In this document: positions 1,393 through 15,731 of the stretch, in pieces | Numbering within the stretch: the stretch's first letter is position 1 | Layout: every line of letters starts with the position of its first letter | Assembly: GCF_014837055.1 (NCBI RefSeq) | Contig: NZ_JACSPQ010000005.1 | Location: 128,735-192,734, forward strand | From: Phocaeicola faecium | GTDB lineage: Bacteria > Bacteroidota > Bacteroidia > Bacteroidales > Bacteroidaceae | DNA: 64,000 nucleotides | Direction of reading: 5' to 3' | The notes under the pieces: generated by a model | The model's input: the letters and a program-made list of their open reading frames with translations, nothing else | What the model was told of the DNA's origin: nothing | The model's database searches: none | Made by a program: the position numbers and the translations under genes

Positions 1393-2592
1393 TTATCTTA
1401 GTTTATACTTTTGAAAATGTGGAGTCACTTTCAAATGAAAGTATAACAGTGAAACAACCGTAAGGGTTGCTCCGAACATATAGGCAATGCGGAATGATGC
1501 TATTTCGGCAATATATCCTCCGGTTAACATTCCTATACCGATGCCTACATCCCATGAAGTCAGGTAAGTGCTGGTAGCTGTGCCGCGTTGGTTATTGGGA
1601 GCAAGGTTGACAAACAAGGTGTTGTAAGCCGGAAACATAGTCCCGAATCCTATTCCGAGCAAGAGGGCGATTGCGAAGAAAGAGCAGGTAGTAAAACTGT
1701 AACTCCAATCAATCAGCCACCCACATGCCGTTAGTCCGAAATAACAGAAGCACACCAAGTAAAGTCCGGCAGCGATAACCTGCGTAACCATGCCCTTGTC
1801 TACCAAACGTCCGCTGAATAATCGGCTGATAGCCATACCCATTGCCATACAAGTGAAAAAGAATCCGGTTTCGGCAGTGATGCCGATCTGCCGGGCATAC
1901 ATGGCTACATAATTGGTTGTCATTCCGTAAGGGATGGAAAGCAGCAACAAACTGAATCCGGCAGGAAGTCCTTTTAGTAAAATAAAGCGGTCGAGAGAAA
2001 TCGGTTCGCGCTTTACCGGAGGTTTATATGGCGTTTTTACCAAGCAAGCGCAAAGAAATCCCAATACGCAAGAGCCTAACGCATAAGAGAAGATAGTAAT
2101 ATACGAAGCCCCTCCGCTGTGTAAGAATAATCCGAACATAGGGCCGATAGACATGGCTATGTTGTTTGCCAATCCGTAATACCCCAATCCCTCTCCGCGT
2201 CGTGAAGACGGCATGATGTCGATTACAATGGTATTCCCGCCCACGGTAACCATTCCGAACGAAATACCATGTATGATGCGGAAGATGATAAACATCGTCA
2301 GCATACCTGCCACCATATAGCCGGCGAATATCAGTGTGAATGTGAAATAAGCCAGCAGGTAAAGAGGTTTTCGTGCAAAAGCATCGAGCAGATAGCCGGA
2401 AAAAGGCCGGATACACAACGATGAAATGGTGTAACAAGACAGTACGATACCTATCGTAGTGTTGGACGAATGAAATATTTCAGATAAATAAAAAGGAAGT
2501 ACAGGGGTAAGTAGCCAGAATCCAAAGTATAGTAAGAAATTGGCTGCCAGAATAAAGCAGTAGCTTGGAGTGACAAGTCTATCTTTTCTCAT
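1393..2592 (-). CDS. MFS transporter
   Basis: A 399-residue polytopic protein with about 12 hydrophobic segments, typical of major facilitator superfamily drug or sugar efflux permeases. The loop 2-3 signature is seen as 'GYLLDAFARKPLY' (about residues 61-73). The second half carries an equivalent loop, 'SGRLVDKGM'. Substrate cannot be inferred. It follows pheS on the same strand but a 16-bp hairpin separates them, so it is probably transcribed separately. Confidence 0.85.
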   Translation of the reverse strand: MRKDRLVTPSYCFILAANFLLYFGFWLLTPVLPFYLSEIFHSSNTTIGIVLSCYTISSLCIRPFSGYLLDAFARKPLYLLAYFTFTLIFAGYMVAGMLTMFIIFRIIHGISFGMVTVGGNTIVIDIMPSSRRGEGLGYYGLANNIAMSIGPMFGLFLHSGGASYITIFSYALGSCVLGFLCACLVKTPYKPPVKREPISLDRFILLKGLPAGFSLLLLSIPYGMTTNYVAMYARQIGITAETGFFFTCMAMGMAISRLFSGRLVDKGMVTQVIAAGLYLVCFCYFGLTACGWLIDWSYSFTTCSFFAIALLLGIGFGTMFPAYNTLFVNLAPNNQRGTATSTYLTSWDVGIGIGMLTGGYIAEIASFRIAYMFGATLTVVSLLYFHLKVTPHFQKYKLR

Positions 2593-2607
2593 GGCGCAAA
2601 ATAGTTT

Positions 2608-2652
2608 AAATGCGGATTAACACCGTTTTCTATTCTGTGTTAATCCGCATTT
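2608..2652 (-). terminator. Terminator between pheS and the MFS gene
   Basis: A 16-bp perfect inverted repeat (2608-2623 with 2637-2652, loop 13) lies just past the pheS stop codon. The following T-rich tract on the minus strand is interrupted, so termination may be partial. Confidence 0.65.
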
Positions 2653-2657
2653 TGTTA

Positions 2658-3677
2658 TTAATTTGCTGATTCGAATTCTTTCAGGAAGCGAGTGTCGTTT
2701 TCAGAGAACATACGCAAATCTTTTACTTTGTATTTCAGATTTGTAATACGTTCTACACCCATTCCGAAAGCATATCCGGTATAAACTTTGCTGTCGATAC
2801 CGTTGGCTTCGAGTACGGCGGGGTCAACCATTCCGCAACCTAAGATTTCCACCCAGCCGGTATATTTACAGAAAGCACAACCCTTTCCGCCGCAAATGTC
2901 GCAACTGATGTCCATTTCTGCGCTCGGTTCGGTAAACGGGAAATAAGACGGGCGCAAGCGAATTTTGGTTTCAGGGCCGAACATCTCTTGTGCAAATTGA
3001 AGCAACACTTGTTTGAGGTCGGTAAACGATACATTTTTATCAATGTATAATCCTTCCACCTGATGGAAGAAACAGTGGGCACGGTAACTGATGGCTTCGT
3101 TTCGGTAAACACGTCCCGGACAAATAACGCGGATGGGAGGCTGTGAAACTTCCATGACACGGCTTTGCACAGACGAAGTGTGTGTACGAAGAATAATATC
3201 GGGATGGCTTTCGATGAAAAAAGTATCTTGCATGTCGCGTGCCGGATGGTCTTCTGCAAAGTTCATAGACGAGAAAACATGCCAGTCATCTTCTACTTCC
3301 GGACCGTCGGCAATGGTGAATCCCATTCGGCCGAATATGTCAATAATTTCGTTACGAACGATGTTCAGAGGATGGCGAGTTCCCAATTCGATCGGGTAAG
3401 CCGTGCGTGTCAAATCCAATTCTGCCGCTCCGGTATCTTTGCTGTCGAAAGCATCTTTAAGTTCGGCAATACGCTCTTGTGCGCGATTTTTCAATTCATT
3501 CAGTTTCATACCCACTTCTTTCTTTTGTTCGGCGGGTACATTGCGGAAATCTGCCATCAGCGCATTAATGGCTCCCTTTTTGCTCAAATATTTGATGCGC
3601 AAAGCTTCCAGTTCATCGGCGTTGCTGGCAGTGATATTCTCTACCTCTTGAAGCAGTTGTTCTATTTTTGCTAACAT
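2658..3677 (-). CDS. pheS: Phenylalanyl-tRNA synthetase alpha subunit
   Basis: 339 residues, the usual length for PheS. The protein has the N-terminal coiled-coil tRNA-binding arm followed by the class II synthetase core. Motif 2 is visible in 'RVYRNEAISYRAHCFFHQVEG' and motif 3 in 'GFGMGVER'-like 'AFGMGVERI' near the C-terminus. It charges tRNA-Phe together with PheT, which is not in this window. Start placed at 3677 (MLAKIEQ); the open frame extends 10 codons upstream, but a TACCTTTG -7 box at 3705-3712 would lie inside or next to that extension. No Shine-Dalgarno sequence is present. Confidence 0.95.
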   Translation of the reverse strand: MLAKIEQLLQEVENITASNADELEALRIKYLSKKGAINALMADFRNVPAEQKKEVGMKLNELKNRAQERIAELKDAFDSKDTGAAELDLTRTAYPIELGTRHPLNIVRNEIIDIFGRMGFTIADGPEVEDDWHVFSSMNFAEDHPARDMQDTFFIESHPDIILRTHTSSVQSRVMEVSQPPIRVICPGRVYRNEAISYRAHCFFHQVEGLYIDKNVSFTDLKQVLLQFAQEMFGPETKIRLRPSYFPFTEPSAEMDISCDICGGKGCAFCKYTGWVEILGCGMVDPAVLEANGIDSKVYTGYAFGMGVERITNLKYKVKDLRMFSENDTRFLKEFESAN

Positions 3678-3824: not shown

Positions 3825-4691
3825 ATGAGAGAATTAATCATCGGGTGTCTTTTGCTTGTGCTAATGGCATCCTGTGGGGGTAAGAAAAAGCAAGTTGACC
3901 CCTTTGAGACGTTGACAGAGCAAATTGATTCGGCAATGACGATACATTCGGATTCGGTTTGTGAAAAGGTAGATGCGGAAGAAGAAGCTGTCCCTGTCGC
4001 CGCTGACGAGAGTTTTGCCGATTTCTTTTATAATTTTGCTTCGGATGAAAGTTTCCAGCGTAAGCGTGTGGTGTTTCCTTGTCCATTTTATGTGGGCGAG
4101 GTGGTGAAGCGTATTGCCCGCGATGAATGGAAATATGACCCCTTGTTCAGTTGCGAACCTGTCTATACGGTTTTGTTCGATAGTGAAGAAGAAATGGAGG
4201 TAGAAAAAGATACTTCTATCCACAGTGTGCAGGTCGATTGGATTTATTTGTCGGAAGAGAAAGTCCAACGCTATTATTTCGAGCGTAAAGACAATCGCTG
4301 GTATCTGGAAGCTGTGGATATTCACCATTCAAAGGCTGTAAGTAAAGACAGTACGAAAGAAGATTTCCTTACGTTTTATGAGAACTTCTCCCGCGATTCG
4401 GTGTTCCAGCGCAGCCGTTTGCATAATCCGTTGACGTTTGTGACTTCCGATCCGGAAGATGAATTCCAGATTCTTGAAACAACTCTTGATGAAGGTCAGT
4501 GGTTTGCTTTTCGTCCTCCGATGATGAAAGACCGATTGACGAATGTGCATTACGGTCAGTCAGAGAATAAAGATTCGGATACAAAGATTGTTGAGTTCAA
4601 AGGGTTCGGCAATGGCTTCAATAATACATTATATTTTAAACGTCGTCATGGCATTTGGAAGTTAATGGAATTTGAAGATTTGAGCGATTGA
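3825..4691 (+). CDS. Lipoprotein resembling DUF4348
   Basis: 288 residues with a lipoprotein signal: hydrophobic stretch then 'LMASCGG', Cys at residue 17. The mature part holds two related segments, 'FADFFYNFASDESFQRKRVVFP' style at about 65-88 and 'FLTFYENFSRDSVFQRSRL' at about 180-198, so it appears to be an internal duplication of an NTF2-like fold. This pattern fits the Bacteroidales DUF4348 family as I remember it. Function unknown. A -7 box TATTTTTG lies at 3796-3803. The gene ends 11 bases before murB, so the two are probably co-transcribed. Confidence 0.75.
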   Translation: MRELIIGCLLLVLMASCGGKKKQVDPFETLTEQIDSAMTIHSDSVCEKVDAEEEAVPVAADESFADFFYNFASDESFQRKRVVFPCPFYVGEVVKRIARDEWKYDPLFSCEPVYTVLFDSEEEMEVEKDTSIHSVQVDWIYLSEEKVQRYYFERKDNRWYLEAVDIHHSKAVSKDSTKEDFLTFYENFSRDSVFQRSRLHNPLTFVTSDPEDEFQILETTLDEGQWFAFRPPMMKDRLTNVHYGQSENKDSDTKIVEFKGFGNGFNNTLYFKRRHGIWKLMEFEDLSD

Positions 4692-4702
4692 AAAACAAGA
4701 TT

Positions 4703-5716
4703 ATGAAAGAATATAATAACTATTCTCTGCTTCCTTATAATACATTTGGGATAAATGTTCAGGCTGCCCGGTTCGTGGAATATGTTTCGGTAGACGAACT
4801 GGTAGCTTTTCTTTCGGCTAATGAGAAAGAGCGTTCTTCTTTTTTGCAGATAGGAGGGGGCAGTAATTTGCTTTTTACATCAGATTATTCAGGTACTATT
4901 CTTCATTCTGCCATCAAAGGGTATGAAATAACCGGGCAGACTAAAGACTATGTGGAAGTTTGCGTTGGTGCCAGTGAGGTCTGGGACGACTTTGTATCTT
5001 ATGCCGTGTCGTGCGGATGGTATGGAGCCGAAAATCTTTCTTTGATACCGGGCGAGGTTGGTGCGTCGGCTGTTCAGAATATCGGTGCATACGGCGTGGA
5101 AGTAAAAGATTTAATCCGTTTTGTTGATGCGGTTTGCATTGAGACCGGAGACGTAAGACGTTTCAGTGCTGAAGAATGTCAGTATGCCTATCGTTCAAGT
5201 GTGTTTAAGAAAGAACTGAAAAACAAATATATCGTTACTCATGTAACTTATCGGTTAAGCAAGCATCCTTTATACCGGTTGGATTACGGGAATATCCGTA
5301 CAGAGCTGGAAAAGGAAAAGTGTGAGCTGACGCTCGATAATATTCGCCGGCTGATTATAAAGATTCGCGAAGCAAAATTACCCGATCCGAAACGGATAGG
5401 CAATGCCGGAAGTTTCTTCATGAATCCCTTTATTGAGAAATCGCAGTACGAAGTATTGTTGAAGGCTTATCCCGATATGCCCTGCTATCCGGCTGCCGAC
5501 GGACTTGTTAAGGTTCCGGCGGGGTGGCTGATAGAACGTTGCGGGTGGAAAGGTAAATCGCTCGGGCGTGCTGGTGTATATGAGAAACAGGCTTTGGTGT
5601 TAGTGAACAGGGGAGGAGCGACAGGAGAAGAAATTGTTCGGTTGGCAAAAGAAATCATCCGTTCCGTGGAAGAAAAATTTGGTATCACAATAAAACCTGA
5701 GGTCAATATTATATGA
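4703..5716 (+). CDS. murB: UDP-N-acetylmuramate dehydrogenase
   Basis: 337 residues, close to the E. coli type I enzyme. It reduces UDP-GlcNAc enolpyruvate to UDP-MurNAc in the cytoplasm, an early step of peptidoglycan synthesis. Visible motifs: 'YNTFGI' at the start, FAD-binding 'IGGGSNLL', 'LSLIPGEVGASAVQNIGAYG', the catalytic Arg in 'YRSSVF', the catalytic Ser in 'GNAGSFFMNP', and the C-terminal Glu in 'KPEVNII'. Start placed at ATG 4703; a TTG five codons upstream would overlap the preceding stop. It overlaps the next gene by ATGA. Confidence 0.95.
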   Translation: MKEYNNYSLLPYNTFGINVQAARFVEYVSVDELVAFLSANEKERSSFLQIGGGSNLLFTSDYSGTILHSAIKGYEITGQTKDYVEVCVGASEVWDDFVSYAVSCGWYGAENLSLIPGEVGASAVQNIGAYGVEVKDLIRFVDAVCIETGDVRRFSAEECQYAYRSSVFKKELKNKYIVTHVTYRLSKHPLYRLDYGNIRTELEKEKCELTLDNIRRLIIKIREAKLPDPKRIGNAGSFFMNPFIEKSQYEVLLKAYPDMPCYPAADGLVKVPAGWLIERCGWKGKSLGRAGVYEKQALVLVNRGGATGEEIVRLAKEIIRSVEEKFGITIKPEVNII

Positions 5717-6489
5717 AGATTACAATATTAGGAAGTGGTACATCGGTAGGGGTTCCGCAGATAGGTTGTACTTGTAAGGTCTGCACGAGTAGCGACCCGT
5801 GCGACAAGCGGTTGCGCTGTTCGGGACTGGTGGAAACAAACGGTGTGCGTGTATTGATAGACTGCGGACCTGATTTTCGTGAACAGATGCTTCGGCTGAA
5901 TGATTTCCGCCCCATCGACGGTGTACTGGTTACTCACGAGCACTACGACCATGTGGGTGGTCTGGATGATTTGCGCCCTTTCTGTTCGTTCCGTGAAATA
6001 CCTGTTTGCGCCGAAGATTACGTAGCCGACCGTCTGCAAAGCCGTATGCCCTATTGTTTTGTCAAGCATCCCTATCCGGGGATTCCTCATATTCCTTTGA
6101 CCCGCTTGCGTGCAGGCGAATCTTTTGCGTTGTCGAACGGCGAGGGGCGACGGGTAGAGATTATGCCTTTCCGCGTACTGCATGGCCAGCTTCCCATATT
6201 GGGTTATCGTATCGGGCAGATGGCTTGGATTACGGACATGCTTACCCTGCCCGAAGAATCCTATTCTTATTTGCAAGGGCTGGATTGCTTGATAATGAAC
6301 GCACTTCGTTTTGAGAAACATTGGACGCACCAATCTTTGTCCGAGGCATTGGAAAAGGCAAAACGGATCGGGGCACGTGAAACCTATTTTATTCACATGA
6401 GCCATGATATAGGCTTACACGCTGAAACGTCGGCATTGCTTCCTGACCACATTCATTTGGCTTACGACGGTATGGAAATCATGCTGTAA
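5713..6489 (+). CDS. PhnP-like MBL-fold phosphodiesterase
   Basis: 258 residues with the metallo-beta-lactamase motif 'HEHYDH' (residues 75-80) binding two catalytic metals. An N-terminal cysteine set (C19-x-C21-x2-C24, plus C30 and C36) matches the structural zinc site of PhnP, the phosphoribosyl 1,2-cyclic phosphate phosphodiesterase. No phn genes are nearby, so the substrate is open; it may act on a cyclic phosphate made in cofactor or RNA metabolism. The start codon overlaps the murB stop (ATGA), implying translational coupling. It is convergent with crcB, 5 bases away. Confidence 0.8.
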   Translation: MKITILGSGTSVGVPQIGCTCKVCTSSDPCDKRLRCSGLVETNGVRVLIDCGPDFREQMLRLNDFRPIDGVLVTHEHYDHVGGLDDLRPFCSFREIPVCAEDYVADRLQSRMPYCFVKHPYPGIPHIPLTRLRAGESFALSNGEGRRVEIMPFRVLHGQLPILGYRIGQMAWITDMLTLPEESYSYLQGLDCLIMNALRFEKHWTHQSLSEALEKAKRIGARETYFIHMSHDIGLHAETSALLPDHIHLAYDGMEIML

Positions 6490-6494
6490 TCGGG

Positions 6495-6857
6495 CTATTT
6501 CAAGAATTTCCCGCCGATGTAAAGTCCGAGTCCTACGAAAATCAGCGCACATATTACGCTGGCGGCGATGTATATAATCCCCTCTATGCGCTGTCCGTTT
6601 TGAAACAGTTGTATGGTTTGGGCGGAAAAGGTAGAAAATGTGGTAAAGCCTCCGCAAAATCCGATGGCAGCGAAAAGATAAACTTCTCCTTTGGTACTTG
6701 CAATTAGCAGCCCGATTATGAACGAGCCGATAACATTTGCAGTGAAAGTTGCTATTTCGGATGCTATGGCAAGGTGTGCCGACAGTAAGGTCAACAGATA
6801 CCTTGCTATGCTTCCCGTAGCCCCTCCAAGAGCTACTAAAAGACATTCTTTTATCAT
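6495..6857 (-). CDS. crcB: Fluoride exporter CrcB/Fluc
   Basis: A 120-residue protein with four membrane segments. The family hallmarks are 'GGATGSIARYLL' near the N-terminus, 'TANVIGSFIIGLL' in the second segment and 'GFCGGFTTFSTFS' in the third. It forms a dual-topology dimeric channel that expels fluoride across the inner membrane. No fluoride riboswitch could sit upstream, because the AraC gene ends only 11 bases before its start; the pair is probably co-transcribed. Confidence 0.93.
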   Translation of the reverse strand: MIKECLLVALGGATGSIARYLLTLLSAHLAIASEIATFTANVIGSFIIGLLIASTKGEVYLFAAIGFCGGFTTFSTFSAQTIQLFQNGQRIEGIIYIAASVICALIFVGLGLYIGGKFLK

Positions 6858-6868
6858 ATTCAGGTAGT

Positions 6869-7765
6869 TTAGTTTTGTGAAACCTTATAAACGTTAGGCG
6901 TGAATCCTGTTATTTTCTTAAACCAGACATTAAATTGTTGTACGTTGGCAAATCCCAGCAGGGCAGCTACCGAAGCCGGAGTGCTTTCTTTTTCCAATAA
7001 AATTCTTTTTGCGGTTTCCAGCAGTTTTATTTGAAAAAATTCTTTTAGCGTTTTTCCGGTTTCAAACTTCAGCAAATCCTCAAAATAACAAGGAGACAGT
7101 TTTAATAAGTCAGCGCAATAGTCGGTTGTAGGATAATTTCCCCGCCGAAGCATTCCTGAACTTATGTATTTGTCTAATATTGCATCGGTTTGTTTTATTA
7201 TCAGTTTGTTCTTGTTTTCCCGCGTGATAAATTGGCGTTCGTAAAACCGTGTACAATAGTCTAACAGTAGTTCTATATATCTTACTATTAAAGTTTGGCT
7301 ATGCCGGTCTATCGGGTGATGCAGTTCGGCATCCATTTCTTGTAAACACTCGGTTATTTTATTTTTTTCTTTGACAGACAGGTGCAATGCTTCTTCTTTG
7401 CGGTATTGGAAAAAAGTATAACGTTTGATACCCTCTTTTAAGTGTGTACCGCACAGTAAGTCGGGGTGAAAGGCAAGCAGCCATCCCTGTTGAGGTAAAA
7501 CTCGTTTATACGTCATGTCGAAAGTTTGTTCGGGCGGTAAAAACACCATCGTGGCATACGAAAAATCGTAAGGTTTGCGGCCACAGCAACAAATGTGTTC
7601 TTTCTCATTTTCTATCAGTAAAATGGCATAGAAATCGAAACGGACGCCATGTTCTTTCACGTCCGTATTGTCCAGCCGGATAACGCTTGCTAACGGATGG
7701 AGCGTTTGACAGCCGAGACATCTGTTACATTGATGCACCGTTTTGATGTCCAGAATTTCTTTCAT
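6869..7765 (-). CDS. AraC-family transcriptional regulator
   Basis: 298 residues: an N-terminal cupin-like sensing domain and a C-terminal AraC double helix-turn-helix (about 195-295; 'SPCYFEDLLKFETGKT' and 'ALLGFANVQQFNVWFKKITGFTP'). The N-terminus has unusually many cysteines, 'CNRCLGC' (residues 13-19) and 'CCCGRK' near residue 60, which might allow metal or redox sensing (inference). A -7 box TACCTTTG lies at 7790-7797 on the minus strand. It sits directly upstream of crcB in the same direction. Confidence 0.88.
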   Translation of the reverse strand: MKEILDIKTVHQCNRCLGCQTLHPLASVIRLDNTDVKEHGVRFDFYAILLIENEKEHICCCGRKPYDFSYATMVFLPPEQTFDMTYKRVLPQQGWLLAFHPDLLCGTHLKEGIKRYTFFQYRKEEALHLSVKEKNKITECLQEMDAELHHPIDRHSQTLIVRYIELLLDYCTRFYERQFITRENKNKLIIKQTDAILDKYISSGMLRRGNYPTTDYCADLLKLSPCYFEDLLKFETGKTLKEFFQIKLLETAKRILLEKESTPASVAALLGFANVQQFNVWFKKITGFTPNVYKVSQN

Positions 7766-8244
7766 GAAGTTAATTTGTGTTTACGGATGCAAAGGTAAGA
7801 ATAAAATTAGTACCTTGTTTGCTCCGTTTATATGAATCTGTAATTTGGGTTATTATCTCTGTAATTAAGGTAAAGCGGGAGGTGAGTAAAGGTGCTGAAT
7901 ATCCGTGGTTTAGGTGCCTTTTTGAATCATTCAAGGCTTGCTTCCGAAGCATGGGAAAATTCTACCCGTAGCGTAGGTGTGTCTTCCGAATAGAACCGGT
8001 CAACTTATCCGCATGAAATGACCAACGCTAACGGTAGTGTTTTCAAATAAAATTCGATACACAAATAAGAATCTGTTAGAAACAAGCTATTTATAAGCTT
8101 TTCTCAAAGAGTGAGGTAATGACTTGGCAACGGTTGCTAATTCTGTGATATGCGGTGTATTTCCACCTAAAAACTCTCGCCGACTGCAAAAATACAAAAA
8201 AAAGAGGATAGGAGTGCAAGTCTTATAAAGTTTTTTCTTGCTTT
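7766..8244. other. Non-coding interval with repeat A and left edge of the island
   Basis: No convincing gene in 479 bases. It holds the AraC promoter box (7790-7797, minus), intergenic repeat copy A (7924-8045) and the candidate left island repeat (8115-8127). An IntDOT-core-like GTATTTTTGC occurs on the minus strand at 8186-8195. Confidence 0.6.
7924..8045 (+). repeat. Intergenic 122-bp repeat, copy A
   Basis: The most diverged plus-orientation copy of a family found six times in the window. It keeps the order CTACCCGTAG, then TAGAACCGGTCAACTTATCC, then ACCAACGCTAACGGTAGTG at the same spacing as copies B and C. Ends are placed by alignment to copy B and are approximate. Confidence 0.75.
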
Positions 8245-9144
8245 TCATTCGTATATTCCATTTTGGTAGTCCGTGATATATTGCGTAAACGTCTTTCCCG
8301 TCTGTTGCTTGAAGAAACGCATCAGATGGCTGGGGTCGGAAAAGTGGAACTCGTCCGCCAACTGGCTCACGTTGCGGTCGGAGAACAACAACTCGTTTTT
8401 CAATTCCTCCAACAGGCGTTGTTTGAGCAAATGGGTGGCGGACACGCCGAACTGCGCCACGACGGAGTTGTTCAGCGTGATGCGACTCACACGGAGCATA
8501 TCGGCATATTCCTGAACACGCTGCACGGTGCGGATATGCTTTTCGAGCAAGTCCTTGAACTGGAATGCATAATTGTTCTTCGGCACTTCGACCGGCAGAC
8601 GGTAAGTTTTGGCGTATGCCCGGTTGATAACCACCAACAGATAGTAAAGCACAGATACGATAAGGTTGTAAGTGTCTGCCACAGGATGCAGCAGCTCCTG
8701 TTTTATCTTCCCCAAGAGGCGCATATATTCCGCCAGTTCTTCCGGCGCGGCAAACAGGTACGGTGGCGTGTCGGTCTGATAATAATACAGCAGGCGATAG
8801 ACGAAGAACTTGTCGGCGATGAACGTGTGCATAAAGTCCTCGCGGAAGATAAGGAAAGTGTAGTCCAGTTCCGCTTCATCCACGTGCCATTCCTGTTGCT
8901 GGTGCGGCGACAGGAGGAGCACCATATCGTCCCGTAACTCTATTTTGCGGAAGTTTAACAGCACATAGCCATTGGCGCGGCGAAAGAAATAGAAACTGAA
9001 AAAATCCGTCTTGAACGTCCGGTGCTCGGTCAAGACACCACAGATGTCCTTGCTCTCGCCTGTGTTGATGTAGAAGTCCACGCCGCAACGTGTCTTGCTG
9101 AACGGGACGCTGACCAGTCTTTCGGGGTTGGTTATCGTTTTCAT
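8245..9144 (-). CDS. AraC-family regulator of the radical SAM cassette
   Basis: 299 residues: an N-terminal cupin-like effector domain and a C-terminal AraC DNA-binding domain (about 195-295; 'MLRVSRITLNNSVVAQFGVS' and 'ADEFHFSDPSHLMRFFKQQ'). Start placed at 9144 (MKTITNPERL); the open frame runs 28 codons further but that part has no conserved look and crosses the TATATTTG -7 box at 9167-9174 on the minus strand. It is divergent from the MBL gene, and direct GGCATA repeats in the shared interval suggest that it controls that operon. Confidence 0.87.
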   Translation of the reverse strand: MKTITNPERLVSVPFSKTRCGVDFYINTGESKDICGVLTEHRTFKTDFFSFYFFRRANGYVLLNFRKIELRDDMVLLLSPHQQQEWHVDEAELDYTFLIFREDFMHTFIADKFFVYRLLYYYQTDTPPYLFAAPEELAEYMRLLGKIKQELLHPVADTYNLIVSVLYYLLVVINRAYAKTYRLPVEVPKNNYAFQFKDLLEKHIRTVQRVQEYADMLRVSRITLNNSVVAQFGVSATHLLKQRLLEELKNELLFSDRNVSQLADEFHFSDPSHLMRFFKQQTGKTFTQYITDYQNGIYE

Positions 9145-9194
9145 CGCTCTTGTTCTTTGCTTTCTGCAAATATACATCATTCTTTTATCAAAAT

Positions 9195-9250
9195 GGCATA
9201 TATTCCTCTTTTTAAGGCATAGAGGCATCAGGGGAATCTTCCGAACTTTG
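9195..9250 (+). promoter_or_regulatory. Candidate AraC operator and MBL operon promoter
   Basis: GGCATA occurs at 9195-9200 and again at 9216-9221, exactly 21 bases apart (two helical turns), with a further GGCAT at 9224-9228. Downstream, GAACTTTG at 9243-9250 is a 7-of-8 match to the Bacteroides -7 box, and the expected -33 position, which lacks TTTG, overlaps the second GGCATA. A weak promoter with an activator site next to -33 is the inference. Confidence 0.4.
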
Positions 9251-9279
9251 CACCCGACAAATCATAAAAGCGTAACATT

Positions 9280-10056
9280 ATGAACGAGAAAGCTATTATC
9301 CGGTTGGTGCGCAGCGCCACCTTGAAAATCAATTATGCAGGACACACCATCCTTGTTGACCCCGTATTTGCCGACAAAGGAACCCTGCAATCCGCTCTCG
9401 GCGTGTATAAAAGTCCGAGGGTGCATCTGGTAATGCCCATCAGCGAAATCACCGAGGGCGTGGATATGGTACTGCTCACACACAACCACATTGACCATTA
9501 TGAACCGAGCGTGAAACAACATTTGCCGAAAGACATCCCTTTCTACACCCAGCCGCAAGACAAGGAAACCCTCGTGCAAGATGGTTTTACAAATGTAGAA
9601 GCAATTGAAAAGAGCAAGATAATAGGCAACCTGACCATCCACCGCACCACGGGTCATCACGGTTTCGGTCAGATAGGCCAGATGATGGGACCCGTGTCGG
9701 GCTATGTGCTGATGGCGGAGGGACTTCCGACCATTTATATAATGGGCGACTGCAAATGGGAACCGTGCATCCTTGAAACCGTGGAAAAATACCGCCCTGA
9801 TTATATCGTTGTAAACAGCGGCGGTGCGGTGTTCCCCGAATTTTCCAAGACAGACGGCTGCATCATCCCCGACGAACAGGAAGTGATGGCGATGCTCGAC
9901 ACGCTCCCCGCACAAATCAAACTGATAGCCGTACACATGGATGCTATTGACCATTGCCAGACAACACGCGAAATCCTGCGAAACGAAGCCCGCCACCACG
10001 GAGTGGATATGAACCGACTGATTATGCCGGGAGATGGGGAGAGCATTACGTTATGA
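9280..10056 (+). CDS. UlaG-like MBL-fold hydrolase of the radical SAM cassette
   Basis: 258 residues. The MBL metal motif is 'HNHIDH' (68-73), with later ligands probably in 'TTGHHGFGQIG' and 'MGDCKWEP'. It resembles the UlaG/YtnP-type single-domain MBL proteins that hydrolyse lactones or phosphoesters, rather than beta-lactamases. No signal peptide, so cytoplasmic. It is the first gene of an operon; its stop overlaps the start of the next gene by ATGA, suggesting coupled production with the radical SAM proteins. Substrate unknown. Confidence 0.85.
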   Translation: MNEKAIIRLVRSATLKINYAGHTILVDPVFADKGTLQSALGVYKSPRVHLVMPISEITEGVDMVLLTHNHIDHYEPSVKQHLPKDIPFYTQPQDKETLVQDGFTNVEAIEKSKIIGNLTIHRTTGHHGFGQIGQMMGPVSGYVLMAEGLPTIYIMGDCKWEPCILETVEKYRPDYIVVNSGGAVFPEFSKTDGCIIPDEQEVMAMLDTLPAQIKLIAVHMDAIDHCQTTREILRNEARHHGVDMNRLIMPGDGESITL

Positions 10057-10721
10057 GTGTTTGCATCAAATCGCTGATAAAGAATATGAACATAGTGATA
10101 GGCTGCTCAATAGGGTGCAGCTACTGCTATGCCCGTAATAACTGTCGCCGCTTCCATATCACGGACGATTTTTCTGTACCCGAATATATGGGGCGCAAGC
10201 TACACATCATCGACACTCCAAAACCTCACGTATGGCTGATGACCGGAATGAGCGACTTCTCCGATTGGAAGCCTGAATGGAACGCGGAGATTTTCGGAAG
10301 AATGAAAAGCAATCCGCAACACGCTTATATCTTTCTTACGAAACGTCCGGATAAGGTCTGTTTTTCTACGGATGACGAAAATGTCTGGATGGGCGTGACC
10401 GTCACGCGCAGTTCCGAGAAAAAAAGGTTAGAAGATTTGAAAAGAAATATCAAGGCCAAACATTACCACGTCACCTTTGAACCTATCTTTGACGAAATCG
10501 GAGAGATAGACTTCGCGGGTATCGATTGGGTTGTCATAGGCACGGAAACGGGACATCGGAAAGGCAAAGTGGATTCCCGTCTCGAATGGGTGCTTCACAT
10601 TGCCGACCAAGCCAAAGCGCAAGGAATCCCCGTATTTATGAAAGAGGATTTGCTGCTTATAATGGGTGAAGAAAGGATGATTCAGGAACTGCCGGAACAA
10701 TTTATCAAACGCATACAATGA
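10053..10721 (+). CDS. Radical SAM protein, mobile pair member A
   Basis: 222 residues with the radical SAM cluster motif C18-x3-C22-x2-C25 ('GCSIGCSYCYAR'). The body is compact, with 'LMTGMSDFSDWKPEW' and 'VVIGTETGH', resembling the DUF5131/phage Gp37-Gp68-like and spore photoproduct lyase-like group. Databases use the name 'radical SAM mobile pair protein A' for such proteins next to a second radical SAM gene; assignment here is from memory. Start placed at 10053, where ATGA overlaps the MBL stop; the longer open frame upstream overlaps the MBL coding region. Reaction unknown. Confidence 0.8.
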   Translation: MSVCIKSLIKNMNIVIGCSIGCSYCYARNNCRRFHITDDFSVPEYMGRKLHIIDTPKPHVWLMTGMSDFSDWKPEWNAEIFGRMKSNPQHAYIFLTKRPDKVCFSTDDENVWMGVTVTRSSEKKRLEDLKRNIKAKHYHVTFEPIFDEIGEIDFAGIDWVVIGTETGHRKGKVDSRLEWVLHIADQAKAQGIPVFMKEDLLLIMGEERMIQELPEQFIKRIQ

Positions 10722-11593
10722 ATACTGAAACAATCAAGGAAATAGACGTACAGAGCGTTATGACCAAATCCGCACTGCCAGTCGGAGGATATTCGGTCAA
10801 TCCTTACGTGGGATGCCCTCACGCCTGCAAGTATTGCTACGCATCGTTTATGAAACGCTTCACCGGGCATACAGAACCGTGGGGCGCGTTTCTGGACGTG
10901 AAGAACTGGAAACCGATAGCCAATCCGCACAAATATGACGGTGAGCGCATCGTGATAGGTTCCGTGACGGACGGTTACAACCCCTATGAGGAACAATTCC
11001 GCCGTACCCGCAGGCTGCTCGAAGAACTGCGCGGAAGCAACGCCGAGATTATGGTATGTACGAAGTCCGACCTCGTCCTTCGCGACCTCGACCTGTTGAA
11101 ACGTTTTCCCAAAGTAACAGTGTCTTGGTCAATCAATACGCTTAACGAACAGTTTCGTGCGGATATGGACAACGCCGTGAGCATAGAACGCCGCCTGAAA
11201 GCAATGCGCCAAGTCTATGAGGCAGGCATCCGTACCGTGTGTTTCGTTTCGCCCATATTTCCGGGAATAACCGATGTAAAGACGATTATCAAGGAAGTGA
11301 AAGGATATGCCGATTTGATATGGCTTGAAAATCTGAACCTGCGCGGACAATTCAAAGGAGAGATAATGGCATATATCCGTGAGAAGCATCCCGAACTCTT
11401 CCCATTATACGATGAGATTTACAACAAGAAAAGGCTTGATTACTGGCAGGCATTGGAGCAGGACATATCCCAATATGCACAGACGCAAGGATTTCCCTAT
11501 CGGGTGAACGATTTGCCCTACGGACGCTCGGAAAAAGGAAAGCCGGTCATCGTAAATTATTTCTATCACGAAAAAATCAGGCTCAAAAAATAA
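10718..11593 (+). CDS. Radical SAM protein, mobile pair member B (SPL/Rv2578c-like)
   Basis: 291 residues with C33-x3-C37-x2-C40 ('GCPHACKYCYASFMKRF'), the form seen in the spore photoproduct lyase and Rv2578c-like radical SAM groups. Later conserved stretches include 'GSVTDGYNPYEE', 'TKSDLVLRDLDLL' and 'WLENLNLRG'. The start overlaps the stop of member A (ATGA), so MBL, A and B form a three-gene, fully coupled operon. Two different radical SAM enzymes side by side suggest a two-step or heteromeric modification, possibly of DNA or nucleotide damage given the SPL likeness (inference). Confidence 0.82.
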   Translation: MNTETIKEIDVQSVMTKSALPVGGYSVNPYVGCPHACKYCYASFMKRFTGHTEPWGAFLDVKNWKPIANPHKYDGERIVIGSVTDGYNPYEEQFRRTRRLLEELRGSNAEIMVCTKSDLVLRDLDLLKRFPKVTVSWSINTLNEQFRADMDNAVSIERRLKAMRQVYEAGIRTVCFVSPIFPGITDVKTIIKEVKGYADLIWLENLNLRGQFKGEIMAYIREKHPELFPLYDEIYNKKRLDYWQALEQDISQYAQTQGFPYRVNDLPYGRSEKGKPVIVNYFYHEKIRLKK

Positions 11594-12335
11594 GATGTAT
11601 ATAAATTCCCGCTATGGGATGATAGCAAACAGCTTCGGTATGCCCGAAACACAAACTTGCTACCATAAAAACAGAGTTCAGACTTTAAAACAACTCATAA
11701 ACTTTGGGCAACTCAAAGGACTGCTCGCAGCTTCTTTCGGAAGCAAACGGGGGCGTTCAGGGGGCAACCCCACTGGCTCATTGGGGAGTTTTTAGCATGA
11801 GCGTCAGCGGTGCGTGAAGAAAACGCCATAATGAGCTATGGCTTTTGTTCCCAAAAGCCTGCGGCGGTGTCGGTTTTCCCTTGTCGGTCGGCAGAACGGA
11901 AGTCCGTCTGGCCAGCCTGCGGATGGCGATACTCACCTCCGTTGCTTCCACAGCAGGCTTGATGATGAATGAAAATCCGATGAATTGATGAATGGGCGAC
12001 TTAACATACTAAAAGTCATAGCGATACATGCTCAACATTCTTTCATCAAACCGCTTGTCAAAAGAAAAGCGATGAGTAAGGCTGTGTCCGTTTTCTCTTT
12101 TCATCAGCCATATCCTTTTGTTGAGAGTTTGATGAGGATGTAAACCGCTGTTATTCTTTATGTTTATATATACTTTCATCAATTCATCAAAATAATAAAT
12201 AGCACTCATGCAAATTACCATGCCGTATTCCGGCAGACTTGCAGGCAAGTCTGAAAGTTTTGAATTATTGAGAAGTGAAGATAACGCATTGATGTTCTGT
12301 AAGATACGACCTAAACAACTGTTCAACAAACCCGT
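11594..12335. other. Non-coding segment of the island
   Basis: 742 bases without a convincing gene. Two terminator-like hairpins follow the radical SAM operon: CCCCA/TGGGG before five T (11768-11793) and GCCATA/TATGGC before TTTT (11825-11842). Then comes an imperfectly palindromic GC-rich stretch (about 11870-11935) and a cluster of TGATGAA/TTCATCA motifs. It could be a decayed transfer-origin or partition region of a conjugative element. Confidence 0.5.
11960..12189. repeat. Cluster of TGATGAA / TTCATCA motifs
   Basis: The heptamer or its core appears at 11960-11969, 11979-11985, 11986-11992, 12042-12048, 12100-12106, 12130-12135, 12175-12181 and 12183-12189, in both orientations; the last two form a tandem pair. 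This is far denser than expected by chance and resembles iteron-type protein-binding sites. Confidence 0.5.
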
Positions 12336-12698
12336 TCACAAAACATTTGGCGACGAAAAGAAAAATAGCACTTGTCTGTCTTTTCGCAAGCACAGCCTTT
12401 CCAACAGGGCGTTGCGTACCCTTGCGGCATTGGGTGTGTTGATACGGAAAGCGATTGCCACGACCATTGGTAGGGCATACGCCTCCGCACAATAACCGTT
12501 GGGAAGCCTGATGCGCCTTTCCACATCGCAAGGCTTCAGCACTCCGCTTTTGTACACGGCTCGGATGGCGGCACGGAGTGTCGGGGCGATTACATCGAAC
12601 AGCCTTACCAACTCCATTTCGTTCATCCACACGTTGGCGGCATCGGACGGCACGGCAATCCTGCCGCACCCGTCCATCGTGATTGTTGTCCGTTCCAT
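12336..12698 (-). CDS. Integrase-linked small hypothetical protein
   Basis: 120 residues, no signal peptide or membrane segment. 'RIRLPNGYCAEAYALPMVVAIAFRIN' (about 63-88, quoted in part) recalls the RLPNG...D.Y.L....AV.YRVNS pattern of RhuM-like proteins, but the likeness is weak. The same kind of protein is often seen beside integrases in Bacteroides mobile elements, as I recall. It lies 10 bases downstream of the integrase in the same direction, so it is likely co-transcribed and may affect recombination or element maintenance. Confidence 0.7.
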   Translation of the reverse strand: MERTTITMDGCGRIAVPSDAANVWMNEMELVRLFDVIAPTLRAAIRAVYKSGVLKPCDVERRIRLPNGYCAEAYALPMVVAIAFRINTPNAARVRNALLERLCLRKDRQVLFFFSSPNVL

Positions 12699-12708
12699 AG
12701 ACTGTGCG

Positions 12709-13917
12709 TTATAGGACGAAACGTCCGCTTATCTTGCTCTCAAAGGCGGATATGTCGTTTTCAAGTTTAGCGTTGGTCACCTTCGCGTAAATTTGCGTGG
12801 TGGTTATATTCGTATGCCCCAAAATCTTGCTCACGCTCTCTATCGGCATACCGTAATTCAATGCCAAAACAGCGAATGAATGGCGGCTCAAATGGAATGA
12901 AACCGGCTTTTCTATCCCGCATTTCTTCGCCACAGCTTTGATGCGTTTGTTCACCATGTCAAGCGAGCCGATGTTGAAAAGTCGCTTGTCTCTTCTGAAC
13001 GGCTCGTAACGCCTGATTATCTGCATGGGGATGTCCATCAGCTTGATTTGGAACGGTACGCCCGTCTTTTGGCGTTTCGACACAATCCATGATGCGCCAT
13101 TCATCTCAACGATGTTGTCGGTGGTCAGGTTCTTGATGTCCGTGAACGAGATGCCAGTCCAGCAACCGAACAGGAACAAATCCCTCGCCAATGCGAAGTT
13201 GGGATTGTCCAAACTGATTGTACTCAACGCCTGAATTTCATCTTCCGTGAGAAAGCCTCGTTCCTTGTGGTCGGGGTCAACGTGGTACATCGCAAACGGG
13301 TTTCTCGGTATCTTGCCATTGTAGTGCGCCGTGGTGACGATGTGTTTCAACGGTATGGAGTATATCCACACGGACGATTGCGCCAGCCCGACCTCGTTTC
13401 GCAGGTACAGGCAGTAGTCACGGATGAAATCCTCCGTCAATTCGTTCATCGCCATGTCCGTCCGCTTGTACTGCCTCTTAATAAACTCCGCTACGTATTT
13501 GCGGACGGTCAGGTACTTCTGGTACGTACGCTTGGAGCGGTCTTTGCCCACCCGCTTGGCAAACGCCTCATTCTCCTTGTCAAGGGCCCGTAACAATGTT
13601 TCATACTCCGTGCCGATGCCTTGATAGGCGTTGCGTACCATTTCAGCCGTGACAAATGCCTCACGGTCGGAAAGCCGCTGGTAGTGCTTCGTTATCTGCG
13701 CCTTGATGTTGTCAAGCGCATAGTTCACCGTCACCGCCTCGCGGCTCTTGCCTTTCGCCCTGTTGCCTTTAGCATCCCACAAATCCTTGGAGATACGCTG
13801 CTTGCAACTGAACTGTGCGATAGTCCCGTTGATTGTAACCCGTCCCATGATGGGGACAATTCCATTCTTTTCCTTGCTTCCGTTTACATAGAAGACGGTC
13901 TTGAAAGTACTTCTCAT
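12709..13917 (-). CDS. Tyrosine recombinase (IntDOT-like integrase)
   Basis: 402 residues: an arm-binding and SAM-like core-binding N-terminal half (to about 220) and a catalytic domain. Active-site residues read K284, H342-x2-R345, H368 and Y377. The position of the first catalytic Arg is Ser257 ('CWTGISFTDI'), as in the CTnDOT integrase, which also lacks that Arg. It would integrate and excise the island. Its -7 box TAATTTTG lies at 13940-13947 on the minus strand. It faces inward from the right end of the island, the usual position. Confidence 0.93.
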   Translation of the reverse strand: MRSTFKTVFYVNGSKEKNGIVPIMGRVTINGTIAQFSCKQRISKDLWDAKGNRAKGKSREAVTVNYALDNIKAQITKHYQRLSDREAFVTAEMVRNAYQGIGTEYETLLRALDKENEAFAKRVGKDRSKRTYQKYLTVRKYVAEFIKRQYKRTDMAMNELTEDFIRDYCLYLRNEVGLAQSSVWIYSIPLKHIVTTAHYNGKIPRNPFAMYHVDPDHKERGFLTEDEIQALSTISLDNPNFALARDLFLFGCWTGISFTDIKNLTTDNIVEMNGASWIVSKRQKTGVPFQIKLMDIPMQIIRRYEPFRRDKRLFNIGSLDMVNKRIKAVAKKCGIEKPVSFHLSRHSFAVLALNYGMPIESVSKILGHTNITTTQIYAKVTNAKLENDISAFESKISGRFVL

Positions 13918-14306: not shown

Positions 14307-15731
14307 ATGGAAGGCAGAGAAAAAACTAATACAGACTTATTATTGGCGTTGATACGCGAGGGGCGTCCGATGACGCTCGGACAACAATTAAAACTGACCA
14401 TACAGCTTAGTATTCCGGCCGTGGTTGCACAGTTTTCTTCCATCGCGATGCAATATATCGATGCTGCGATGGTGGGGAGCTTGGGTGCTGAGGCTTCGGC
14501 TTCCATCGGCTTGGTGTCGACTACTACATGGTTGTTCAGCGGGCTTTGTGTGGCGTGTGCCACGGGGTTTTCTGTCCAAGTGGCACACGCCATCGGTGCA
14601 GGTGATATGCGTCTGGCGCGTGCTGTGCTTCGTCAGTCATTCGTGGCTACACAGGTTTTTGTTTGCCTGTTGGCTGCTGCCGGTATGCTGATCAGCGGTT
14701 CGTTGCCCCGCTGGTTAGGCGGAGAAGATGAAATTTGCGGTGATTCGTCCCTATACTTCTTCATTTATGCGGCTTTCTTACCCATGCTTCAACTCAATTT
14801 CCTTTCGGGCAGTATGTTGCGGTGTAGCGGAAACATGCGCGTGCCCAGCATGTTGAGCATGTTGATGTGTCTGCTCGATGTGATATTTAATTTCTTTCTT
14901 ATTTTCCCTTCCCGTGAAGTGAGTTGGTTCGGGCTGTCGTTCTTTATGCCGGGAGCCGGAATGGAAGTGGCGGGAGCTGCGCTCGGTACCGGATTGGCAG
15001 AAATGGTAACCGCCGGTTTGGTTACGTGGTATCTTTGTACACGGTCCTCTAACTTAAAGTTATCCGGCGAGCGGGGCAGTTTCCGTATCAAGTCTGCCAC
15101 CCTGAAAAAAGCGCTTCGCATCGGGCTGCCCATGGGGATAGAACATGCCGTGATATGTGGCGCTCAGATTATGACCACCGTTATCGTCGCCCCGTTGGGT
15201 ATTTTCTCGATTGCAGCCAATTCGTTTGCCATTACAGCCGAAAGTCTGTGTTACATGCCCGGTTATGGTATAGCCGATGCCGCCACCACGCTGGTAGGAC
15301 AGAGTTTGGGTGCGGGACGTAAAGATTTGACCCGCCGTTTTGCCCGGATAACGGTATTCATGGGCATGGCGATAATGGGTGTCATGGGAGTGATAATGTA
15401 TGTGGCAGCTCCTCTTATTATCGGTTCGATGACCCCGGATGCCGAAGTGCTCTCATTGGGAGTAATGGCATTGCGCATCGAAGCGTTTGCCGAACCCATG
15501 TTTGCCGCCGCCATTGTAGCCTACGGTGTTTTTGTAGGGGCAGGAAGCACGATAATCCCTTGTTTAATGAACTTCTTCAGCATCTGGGCTGTTAGGTTGA
15601 CGCTGGCTGCTGCTTTGGCTCCTTTGATGGGCTTGAAAGGGGTCTGGCTGGCAATGTGCATCGAACTGTGTTTCCGGGGAATCATATTCTTGTTCCGGAT
15701 GGAAAAAGGAAATTGGATGAATAAGATATAG
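14307..15731 (+). CDS. MATE family efflux transporter
   Basis: 474 residues with about 12 hydrophobic segments arranged as two six-helix halves, typical of MATE cation-coupled multidrug exporters. Conserved spots include 'AMQYIDAAMVGSLGAEA' in helix 1-2 and 'GYGIADAATTLVGQSLGAG' in the second half. It likely sits in the inner membrane and exports cationic compounds using Na+ or H+. A -7 box (14279-14286) lies 21 bases upstream of the start. It is the first chromosomal gene right of the island. Confidence 0.9.
   Translation: MEGREKTNTDLLLALIREGRPMTLGQQLKLTIQLSIPAVVAQFSSIAMQYIDAAMVGSLGAEASASIGLVSTTTWLFSGLCVACATGFSVQVAHAIGAGDMRLARAVLRQSFVATQVFVCLLAAAGMLISGSLPRWLGGEDEICGDSSLYFFIYAAFLPMLQLNFLSGSMLRCSGNMRVPSMLSMLMCLLDVIFNFFLIFPSREVSWFGLSFFMPGAGMEVAGAALGTGLAEMVTAGLVTWYLCTRSSNLKLSGERGSFRIKSATLKKALRIGLPMGIEHAVICGAQIMTTVIVAPLGIFSIAANSFAITAESLCYMPGYGIADAATTLVGQSLGAGRKDLTRRFARITVFMGMAIMGVMGVIMYVAAPLIIGSMTPDAEVLSLGVMALRIEAFAEPMFAAAIVAYGVFVGAGSTIIPCLMNFFSIWAVRLTLAAALAPLMGLKGVWLAMCIELCFRGIIFLFRMEKGNWMNKI

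Follow-up and report, generated by a model that had tools for sequence, protein, structure and literature searches.

A stretch of 64,000 nucleotides of the Phocaeicola faecium genome (GCF_014837055.1, contig NZ_JACSPQ010000005.1, positions 128,735 to 192,734; the window, whose coordinates are used below) carries a cassette in which a divergent AraC-family regulator gene is followed by genes for a metallo-beta-lactamase-fold (MBL) hydrolase and two radical S-adenosylmethionine (SAM) proteins, A and B. We tentatively read it, with a probability of about 0.45, as an inducible and transferable cassette against electrophile or redox stress, whose MBL destroys a reactive compound and whose B protein, helped by A, acts on the compound, its product or the damage. 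In such a system AraC would sense a reactive (electrophilic or redox-active) compound and switch the operon on, and the MBL would hydrolyse that compound, as SaxA does isothiocyanates. B, assisted by A in the loci that have it, would use SAM-derived radical chemistry of the spore photoproduct lyase (SPL) kind, either to degrade the compound or its product or to reverse the damage done to a nucleic acid or some other molecule. We favour reactive-compound or redox stress because ligand-type regulators, detoxification partners, kinship to SaxA and linkage to SirTM genes converge on it. New here are the relation of the MBL to SaxA, the predicted SPL-like folds of A and B, an operator common to the AraC-driven loci and the presence of that operator before SirTM, MBL and cupin genes. 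The mobile pair to which A and B belong is a named yet unexplained family, and the MBL kinship, the operator and the SirTM link point to testable classes of inducer, hydrolase substrate and radical chemistry. The features are as follows.

8245-9144, minus strand: AraC-family regulator, 299 aa (HTH_18/HTH_AraC; listed open reading frame (ORF) 8245-9228, 327 aa)
9185-9221, plus strand: predicted AraC operator TTATCAAAATGGCATA-N15-GGCATA, matched exactly in the window
9280-10056, plus strand: MBL-fold hydrolase, SaxA-like, 258 aa (PF12706/PF13483)
10053-10721, plus strand: radical SAM mobile pair protein A, 222 aa (TIGR04471; DUF5131)
10718-11593, plus strand: radical SAM mobile pair protein B, 291 aa (TIGR04470)
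12709-13917, minus strand: tyrosine recombinase, convergent with the cassette (PF00589, PF13102, PF17293)

An earlier sequence-only reading of this DNA had described three genes joined by ATGA overlaps with a divergent AraC gene, and radical SAM proteins of 222 and 291 residues that each carry a CX3CX2C motif. The reading frames and both overlaps (MBL/A at 10053-10056, A/B at 10718-10721) are present, and the motifs are C18-x3-C22-x2-C25 in A and C33-x3-C37-x2-C40 in B. Its statement that such proteins are known to databases as a mobile pair also proved right, as A scores 415.3 bits against TIGR04471 (curated cut-off 355) and B 580.8 bits against TIGR04470 (curated cut-off 410). Like the NCBIfam pair (TIGR04471 A, TIGR04470 B, TIGR04472 MarR), the two genes are adjacent with A before B. 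The window differs from it in having AraC and a SaxA-like MBL, with an operator of their own, in place of the adjacent TIGR04472 MarR regulator, which the models of A and B do not demand and which we found in a Lachnospira locus (L011), and relatives also have B without A. There is a single copy of A in the window genome. The AraC gene most likely starts at 9144, 28 codons past the listed ORF start, because two compared homologues, of 299 and 297 aa, can be aligned from nearly their first residue, and because the operator would otherwise lie inside the gene. The window AraC is 80% identical over 299 aa to the AraC of plasmid L009 and 68% identical to that of a Prevotella locus (L063).

For comparison we kept the best 80 loci (L020-L099), ranked by similarity to the window B, among at least 569 relatives of B in named genomes; given this ranking, the locus counts describe window-like B genes and are no population frequencies. 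With at least 2.5 kb upstream of B, 58 of the 80 loci are informative.

The predicted operator lies in the AraC-MBL (or AraC-A) spacer and has two GGCATA half-sites 21 bp, or two helical turns, apart. With up to 4 mismatches allowed in its 22 fixed positions, it was searched for in 103 loci. It occurs in 43 of the 44 loci with a divergent AraC gene (27 of 28 distinct B genes, with 20 distinct operators; the single miss is L089), or in 42 of 44 when a narrower region is searched, compared with none of 41 loci under other regulators (0/20 MarR, 0/16 HxlR, 0/5 Rrf2; 0/34 distinct B genes). It was also found in one of 13 loci without a visible regulator and in none of the five with AraC solely 3' of B. 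The background in the same loci is one match per 2.52 million positions, both strands counted. Single half-sites with at most one mismatch are present in three of the five AraC-3' loci and in two of the 20 MarR loci. The operator loci are related by descent, with B proteins about 73-100% identical to the window B, and their hosts include Bacteroides, Phocaeicola, Alistipes, Barnesiella and Prevotella. GAACTTTG (9243-9250), a possible -7 element by comparison with the Bacteroides consensus TAnnTTTG, follows the end of the distal half-site at a distance of 21 bp, which could be the spacing expected for an activator.

At genome scale the pattern (at most 2 mismatches) was found in eight of 295 genomes of the same order, and the four exact matches are all in cassette-bearing genomes. 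Four two-mismatch matches (G600, G682, G510, G435) were considered as further regulon members and look like chance: the G600 match is inside a coding sequence, the G682 match is nearly identical in letters, and no relatives of the cassette genes, SirTM or cupin were found at the two-mismatch loci L215, L219 and L220. Among 16 chosen cassette-bearing genomes, 15 have the operator (at most 3 mismatches), nine of them in one copy and the rest in two or three.

Some of these extra copies lead to the link with SirTM. The genome of Phocaeicola coprocola DSM 17136 (L031) has two additional operators, with 1 and 2 mismatches, on another contig. In P. coprocola locus L211 (positions 3954-8522; G906:C14) operators stand before genes for SirTM, GNAT-like, SIR2-like, MBL and cupin proteins, of which the SirTM protein matches PDB 5a3a with an E-value of 1.3e-38 and the GNAT-like protein was named by reading its sequence and has no Pfam match. 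This regulon has its own divergent AraC (577 bits to the window AraC) and its MBL scores 449 bits to the window MBL; it has no A or B. Relatives of SirTM are found no more than about 10 kb from B in nine of the 80 loci, which belong to Bacillota and Bacteroidota and are partly related to each other (L076, L078, L081, L084, L089, L090, L095, L023 and L065; the L089 match is partial), often with two or three SirTM-like genes in a row. Across 35 whole genomes, chosen to include those nine, SirTM relatives occur in 15, with 31 matches in total, and about 0.2 copies near B would be expected by chance against the nine observed. SirTM operons have been linked to oxidative stress and to flavin oxidoreductases (Rack et al. 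2015, PMC4518038). The cassette resembles them in that SirTM is under the cassette operator in one genome and near B in nine of 80 loci, and differs in that the window cassette has no SirTM, the association being one of neighbourhood.

The window MBL matches SaxA (PDB 6brm) over its full length (residues 9-256, E=1e-41). As in SaxA and its relative 3rpc, the expected metal-ligand positions H68, H70, D72, H73, H127, D157 and H219 are conserved, throughout all 20 aligned MBL sequences. SaxA is described as an isothiocyanate hydrolase that releases an amine and carbonyl sulfide (PMC7303113). Judged by its sequence, the window MBL is related to the characterised SaxA group without belonging to it; it stands on a separate branch and, unlike SaxA, shares an operon with radical SAM enzymes. 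The Prevotella version of the cassette has an MBL that is nearer to SaxA (43% identity, E 3.6e-60). Two independent recruitments of SaxA-like MBLs, one for the window type and one for the Prevotella type, are not claimed: the free tree separates the types (98/97 support), but a single clade is not rejected by the approximately unbiased (AU) test (p 0.118).

SaxA-like MBL genes were also seen on other plasmids. In L159 and L160, from Levilactobacillus and Leuconostoc plasmids of sauerkraut or kimchi isolates, they stand beside oxidoreductase genes, which would fit exposure to cabbage isothiocyanates. In L162 and L164, from Enterobacter and Pseudoalteromonas plasmids, they are near genes for an isochorismatase-family protein and a helix-turn-helix regulator, a set that resembles the sax gene set of Pseudomonas.

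Both radical SAM proteins have SPL (4fhf, TIGR04070) as their best fold match. The AlphaFold2 model of B (pLDDT 89.0) matches SPL with Z 17.0 (root-mean-square deviation (rmsd) 3.7 over 242 residues), followed by the next family at Z 14.7 and RlmN at Z 13.1. The model of A (pLDDT 89.5) matches SPL with Z 11.7 (rmsd 3.1 over 188 residues), tied with viperin-like enzymes, which are within 1 Z. SPL was recovered by Foldseek for B, by VIA-align for A and B, and by profile comparison, where B and clostridial SPL match with a probability of 96.3%; A and B match each other with 90.6%, over 30 columns alone. No credible match came from searching the PDB sequences with B and A, whether as single sequences or in profile form (best E 0.1, 0.19, 1.2 and 0.031), and Foldseek with A gave nothing below E 0.001. 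With SPL the two proteins share the CX3CX2C motif and a tyrosine on both sides of the third cluster cysteine, invariant in A and in B, which we take to correspond to Y97 and Y99 of SPL. A has in addition a cysteine, Cys4, that is aligned with the conserved clostridial SPL cysteine, presumably C74, in 28 of 29 sequences, in a weak alignment (49.9%).

In SPL, hydrogen is relayed by one cysteine, C141 in the Bacillus enzyme and C74 in the Clostridium enzyme, and a pair of tyrosines (PMC5368176). B has no cysteine at either of these donor places in 44 aligned rows: position 19 is A, S, T or N, and positions 80-85, which align with the Bacillus donor region to within one residue, hold none. Its sole invariant cysteine outside the cluster is C175 (44/44). 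B scores 17.1 bits against TIGR04070, below the cut-off of 400, and many of its carriers are Bacteroidales, which do not form spores. Membership of B in SPL was therefore rejected on the missing donor cysteines and the score below cut-off; on its model, B is an SPL-fold radical SAM enzyme but not an SPL, because neither donor cysteine is there. The view of the sequence-only reading that A and B lack a characterised pathway agrees with the open-licence PubMed Central (PMC) literature, where we found no such pathway and no paper on the mobile pair, TIGR04470/04471 or DUF5131. The same literature held nothing that combines at least four of the terms radical SAM, MBL, AraC, Bacteroides and mobile, and for Bacteroides with isothiocyanates just reviews whose abstracts seem unrelated.

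Regulators and partner enzymes vary across the loci. The 58 informative loci have AraC in 33, HxlR in 13, Rrf2 in seven, MarR in six and no regulator in three, some loci having two. The nearest regulator in Bacteroidota (n=40) is AraC in 31, HxlR in six and none in three, and in Bacillota (n=17) HxlR in seven, MarR in six and Rrf2 in four; one metagenome-assembled genome (MAG) labelled Pseudomonadota has AraC and a plasmid-type cassette. The earlier statement that the regulator is usually MarR holds for the NCBI name (TIGR04472) and for six of the 17 Bacillota loci, where HxlR is about as frequent, and fails for Bacteroidota, which mostly have AraC. Partner families, named by Pfam scans with one representative each, are SaxA-like MBL (26 loci), cupin (11), flavin reductase (9) and CGGC protein (2), and at least one of five partner families is present in 45 of the 58 loci. 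PNPOx-like proteins directly precede B in L079 and L080, which have short upstream sequence.

A is present in 40 and absent in 18 of the 58 informative loci. AraC, MBL, A and B occur together in 19, and AraC, MBL and B without A in six. Among 23 genomes with B but no neighbouring A, 21 have no A at all at E <= 1e-20 (several are incomplete MAGs), one has two good A genes on other contigs and one has a weak match. A quick tree of B from 55 loci requires at least six changes of regulator, ten of the presence of A, and six of the partner when partnerless loci are excluded (17 when they are counted). Because of the locus counts, the absences of A and these minimum changes, we conclude from the compared loci that B is the constant component, with A as an optional addition, and that regulators and partner enzymes swap. 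Sampling by B partly builds in its constancy, and a search of viral contigs with A gives an independent check: 13 of 42 B relatives there are mobile-pair-like (at least 59% identity), and the separate A search found 13 loci, on exactly the same 13 contigs. In L018 (positions 2494-3089; the record is shared with L026) the AraC-MBL-A-B cassette is complete but for A, which is split into two reading frames, and this broken A may be another sign that A is dispensable.

The same cassette is found well outside the strain, in agreement with the sequence-only reading, in the 19 informative loci with all four genes and on plasmids. Of 72,556 plasmid records 27 carry B, namely 24 from Bacteroidales (80-90% identity) and three from Bacillota (60-80%); the order is AraC-MBL-A-B in the three Bacteroidales plasmids inspected and MarR-A-B in the two Bacillota plasmids inspected. 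In L009 and L010, both plasmids, the cassette has a relaxase gene on one side and a serine recombinase gene on the other. In sampled genomes, A was found at E <= 1e-40 in seven of 393 of the same order, with five above the cut-off, and in one of 395 of the same phylum, which is the window's own.

NZ_CP072241, a record named pMMCAT, has AraC-MBL-A-B with a B 88.7% identical to the window B; the window copy differs in lying on a 201-kb contig beside a tyrosine recombinase. pMMCAT, about 98 kb in size, is described as spreading among Bacteroidales of the gut (PMC8102008, PMC12056005) and is called 'ubiquitous (>70% abundance)' in populations of the USA, Japan and Thailand (PMC8102008). For one pMMCAT a functional category could be assigned to just six of 104 proteins (PMC12056005), and the term 'radical SAM' is absent from the main texts of both papers. 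Given this ubiquity and the presence of the cassette on pMMCAT-type plasmids, the trait may be common in human guts. A pMMCAT-type cassette also occurs in a MAG labelled Tolumonas (L035), probably a misbinned Bacteroidales contig.

The extent of the transferred unit was read from nucleotide comparisons. The window and L021, another Bacteroidales genome, are 99% identical over 8249-11594, and the identity ends on both sides, at the outer ends of the AraC and B genes, though L021 runs 7 kb further. L020, whose contig is cut on the left, is 99% identical up to 11594, and L014 is 90% identical over 8231-11655. Similarity to other cassette loci ends near 11594 or 11655, with the tyrosine recombinase (12709-13917) outside. 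By these limits the conserved unit is the AraC-MBL-A-B cassette without the neighbouring recombinase. A recombinase was flagged within about 5 kb of B in 14 of 80 loci by a method of low sensitivity (50 of the 80 have less than 5 kb on a side), and in seven of the 30 loci that reach 5 kb to either side. Attachment (att) repeats in the window were limited to short, chance-like pairs of direct repeats, none convincing; no tRNA gene was found in the window, and no empty site among the relatives compared, which are too diverged. Five relatives of the window genome that share the MATE gene 3' of the integrase were compared, and near MATE none of them has a gene that the window carries on the far side of the cassette. 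The integrase as mover of the cassette was rejected as unproven, with no att site or empty site and a conserved unit that ends at B. The tyrosine recombinase of the proposed integrase island is there, and the movement of everything by that recombinase was not borne out; nor do the data support 'integrase-linked' as a property of the cassette, as the conserved unit leaves out the window integrase and the low-sensitivity method flagged a recombinase in 14 of 80 loci.

L020 (3291-4205) and L021 (10891-11472) each have another, convergent AraC gene of this family, located 14 bp after B. The AraC near B in L036, L038 and L040 is of this second type, and the operator there has diverged.

Several points weigh against a cassette for electrophile or redox stress. 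The activities and the substrate of MBL, A and B are predictions alone. The window-type MBL is 34% identical to SaxA (6brm), its tree groups it with Pararhizobium and Deinococcus homologues apart from SaxA (98/97 support), and no relationship was detected between the cassette AraC and the AraC-type genes that adjoin four SaxA-like MBLs of other plasmids. The profile match of A to SPL is weak (probability 49.9%), and B lacks a cysteine at both donor places. The 43 of 44 operator count was made with a pattern derived from the compared spacers, all of which except the window's are among the 103 loci later counted. None of the five partner families is present in 13 of the 58 informative loci, and many of the compared loci are close relatives, so that the counts are not independent. 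A sharper version, in which an electrophile from the diet or the host, for example an isothiocyanate, is hydrolysed by the SaxA-like MBL, its nucleic-acid lesion is reversed by a new SPL-type radical repair system made up of B and A, and the operon has spread in human gut Bacteroidales on pMMCAT and related elements, we consider unlikely.

Instead of repairing anything, A and B could inactivate or modify one small-molecule antibiotic or host or dietary xenobiotic, with the MBL, cupin or flavin reductase in the same short degradation pathway. Regulators of ligand-sensing types (AraC, MarR, HxlR), partners that are small-molecule enzymes and the donor cysteines missing from B would all suit this, as would the mobilizable Selenomonas ruminantium plasmid pSRC6 (L012), where a chloramphenicol acetyltransferase gene (9278-9928) follows MarR-A-B. 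The partners vary widely and B hardly at all, however, which fits a general lesion or a common product better than one drug, and the nearest solved fold is a nucleic-acid repair enzyme; we hold the single-compound pathway to be possible, though rather doubtful. A modification made in undamaged cells, such as an epigenetic or target-protection mark of the Cfr/RlmN kind on nucleic acid or protein, is distinctly unlikely. The cassette is mobile, RlmN is among the fold matches of B (Z 13.1) and radical SAM enzymes of the size of A and B often modify RNA or protein, but for B SPL is ahead of RlmN by about 4 Z and of the next family by about 2 Z, and C175 is the sole invariant cysteine of B outside the cluster.

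If MBL, A and B were unrelated cargo transferred together, the absence of A from 18 of 58 informative loci, the swapping of partners and the carriage on plasmids, sometimes near recombinases, would be natural. The ATGA overlaps, the one operator common to 43 of 44 AraC loci, the retention of MBL with B but no A in six of 58 loci and the finding of all 13 viral-contig A loci on contigs with B speak for a functional unit and make mere hitchhiking very unlikely. Anti-phage defence appears the least probable of these explanations. It draws on matches of A (DUF5131) to the candidate defence models PDC-M30B and PDC-M41B of PADLOC (E about 1e-31), on the viperin-like enzymes within 1 Z of SPL in its fold list and on the 13 viral-type contigs with A and B; against it, the PADLOC matches are probably at the level of DUF5131, B and the MBL have no match, the neighbours are redox or detoxification genes and the regulators are of ligand-sensing types.

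Outside the cassette, the window has a further MBL-like gene on the left (5713-6489, identified by reading the sequence) and, to the right of the integrase, a MATE efflux gene (14307-15731). A 120-aa protein adjoining the integrase (12336-12698, minus strand) has no match in Pfam or NCBIfam and 24 matches to the PADLOC candidate models PDC-S05/PDC-S23, the best at 4e-9; its relatives adjoin integrases in L023, L032 and L033.

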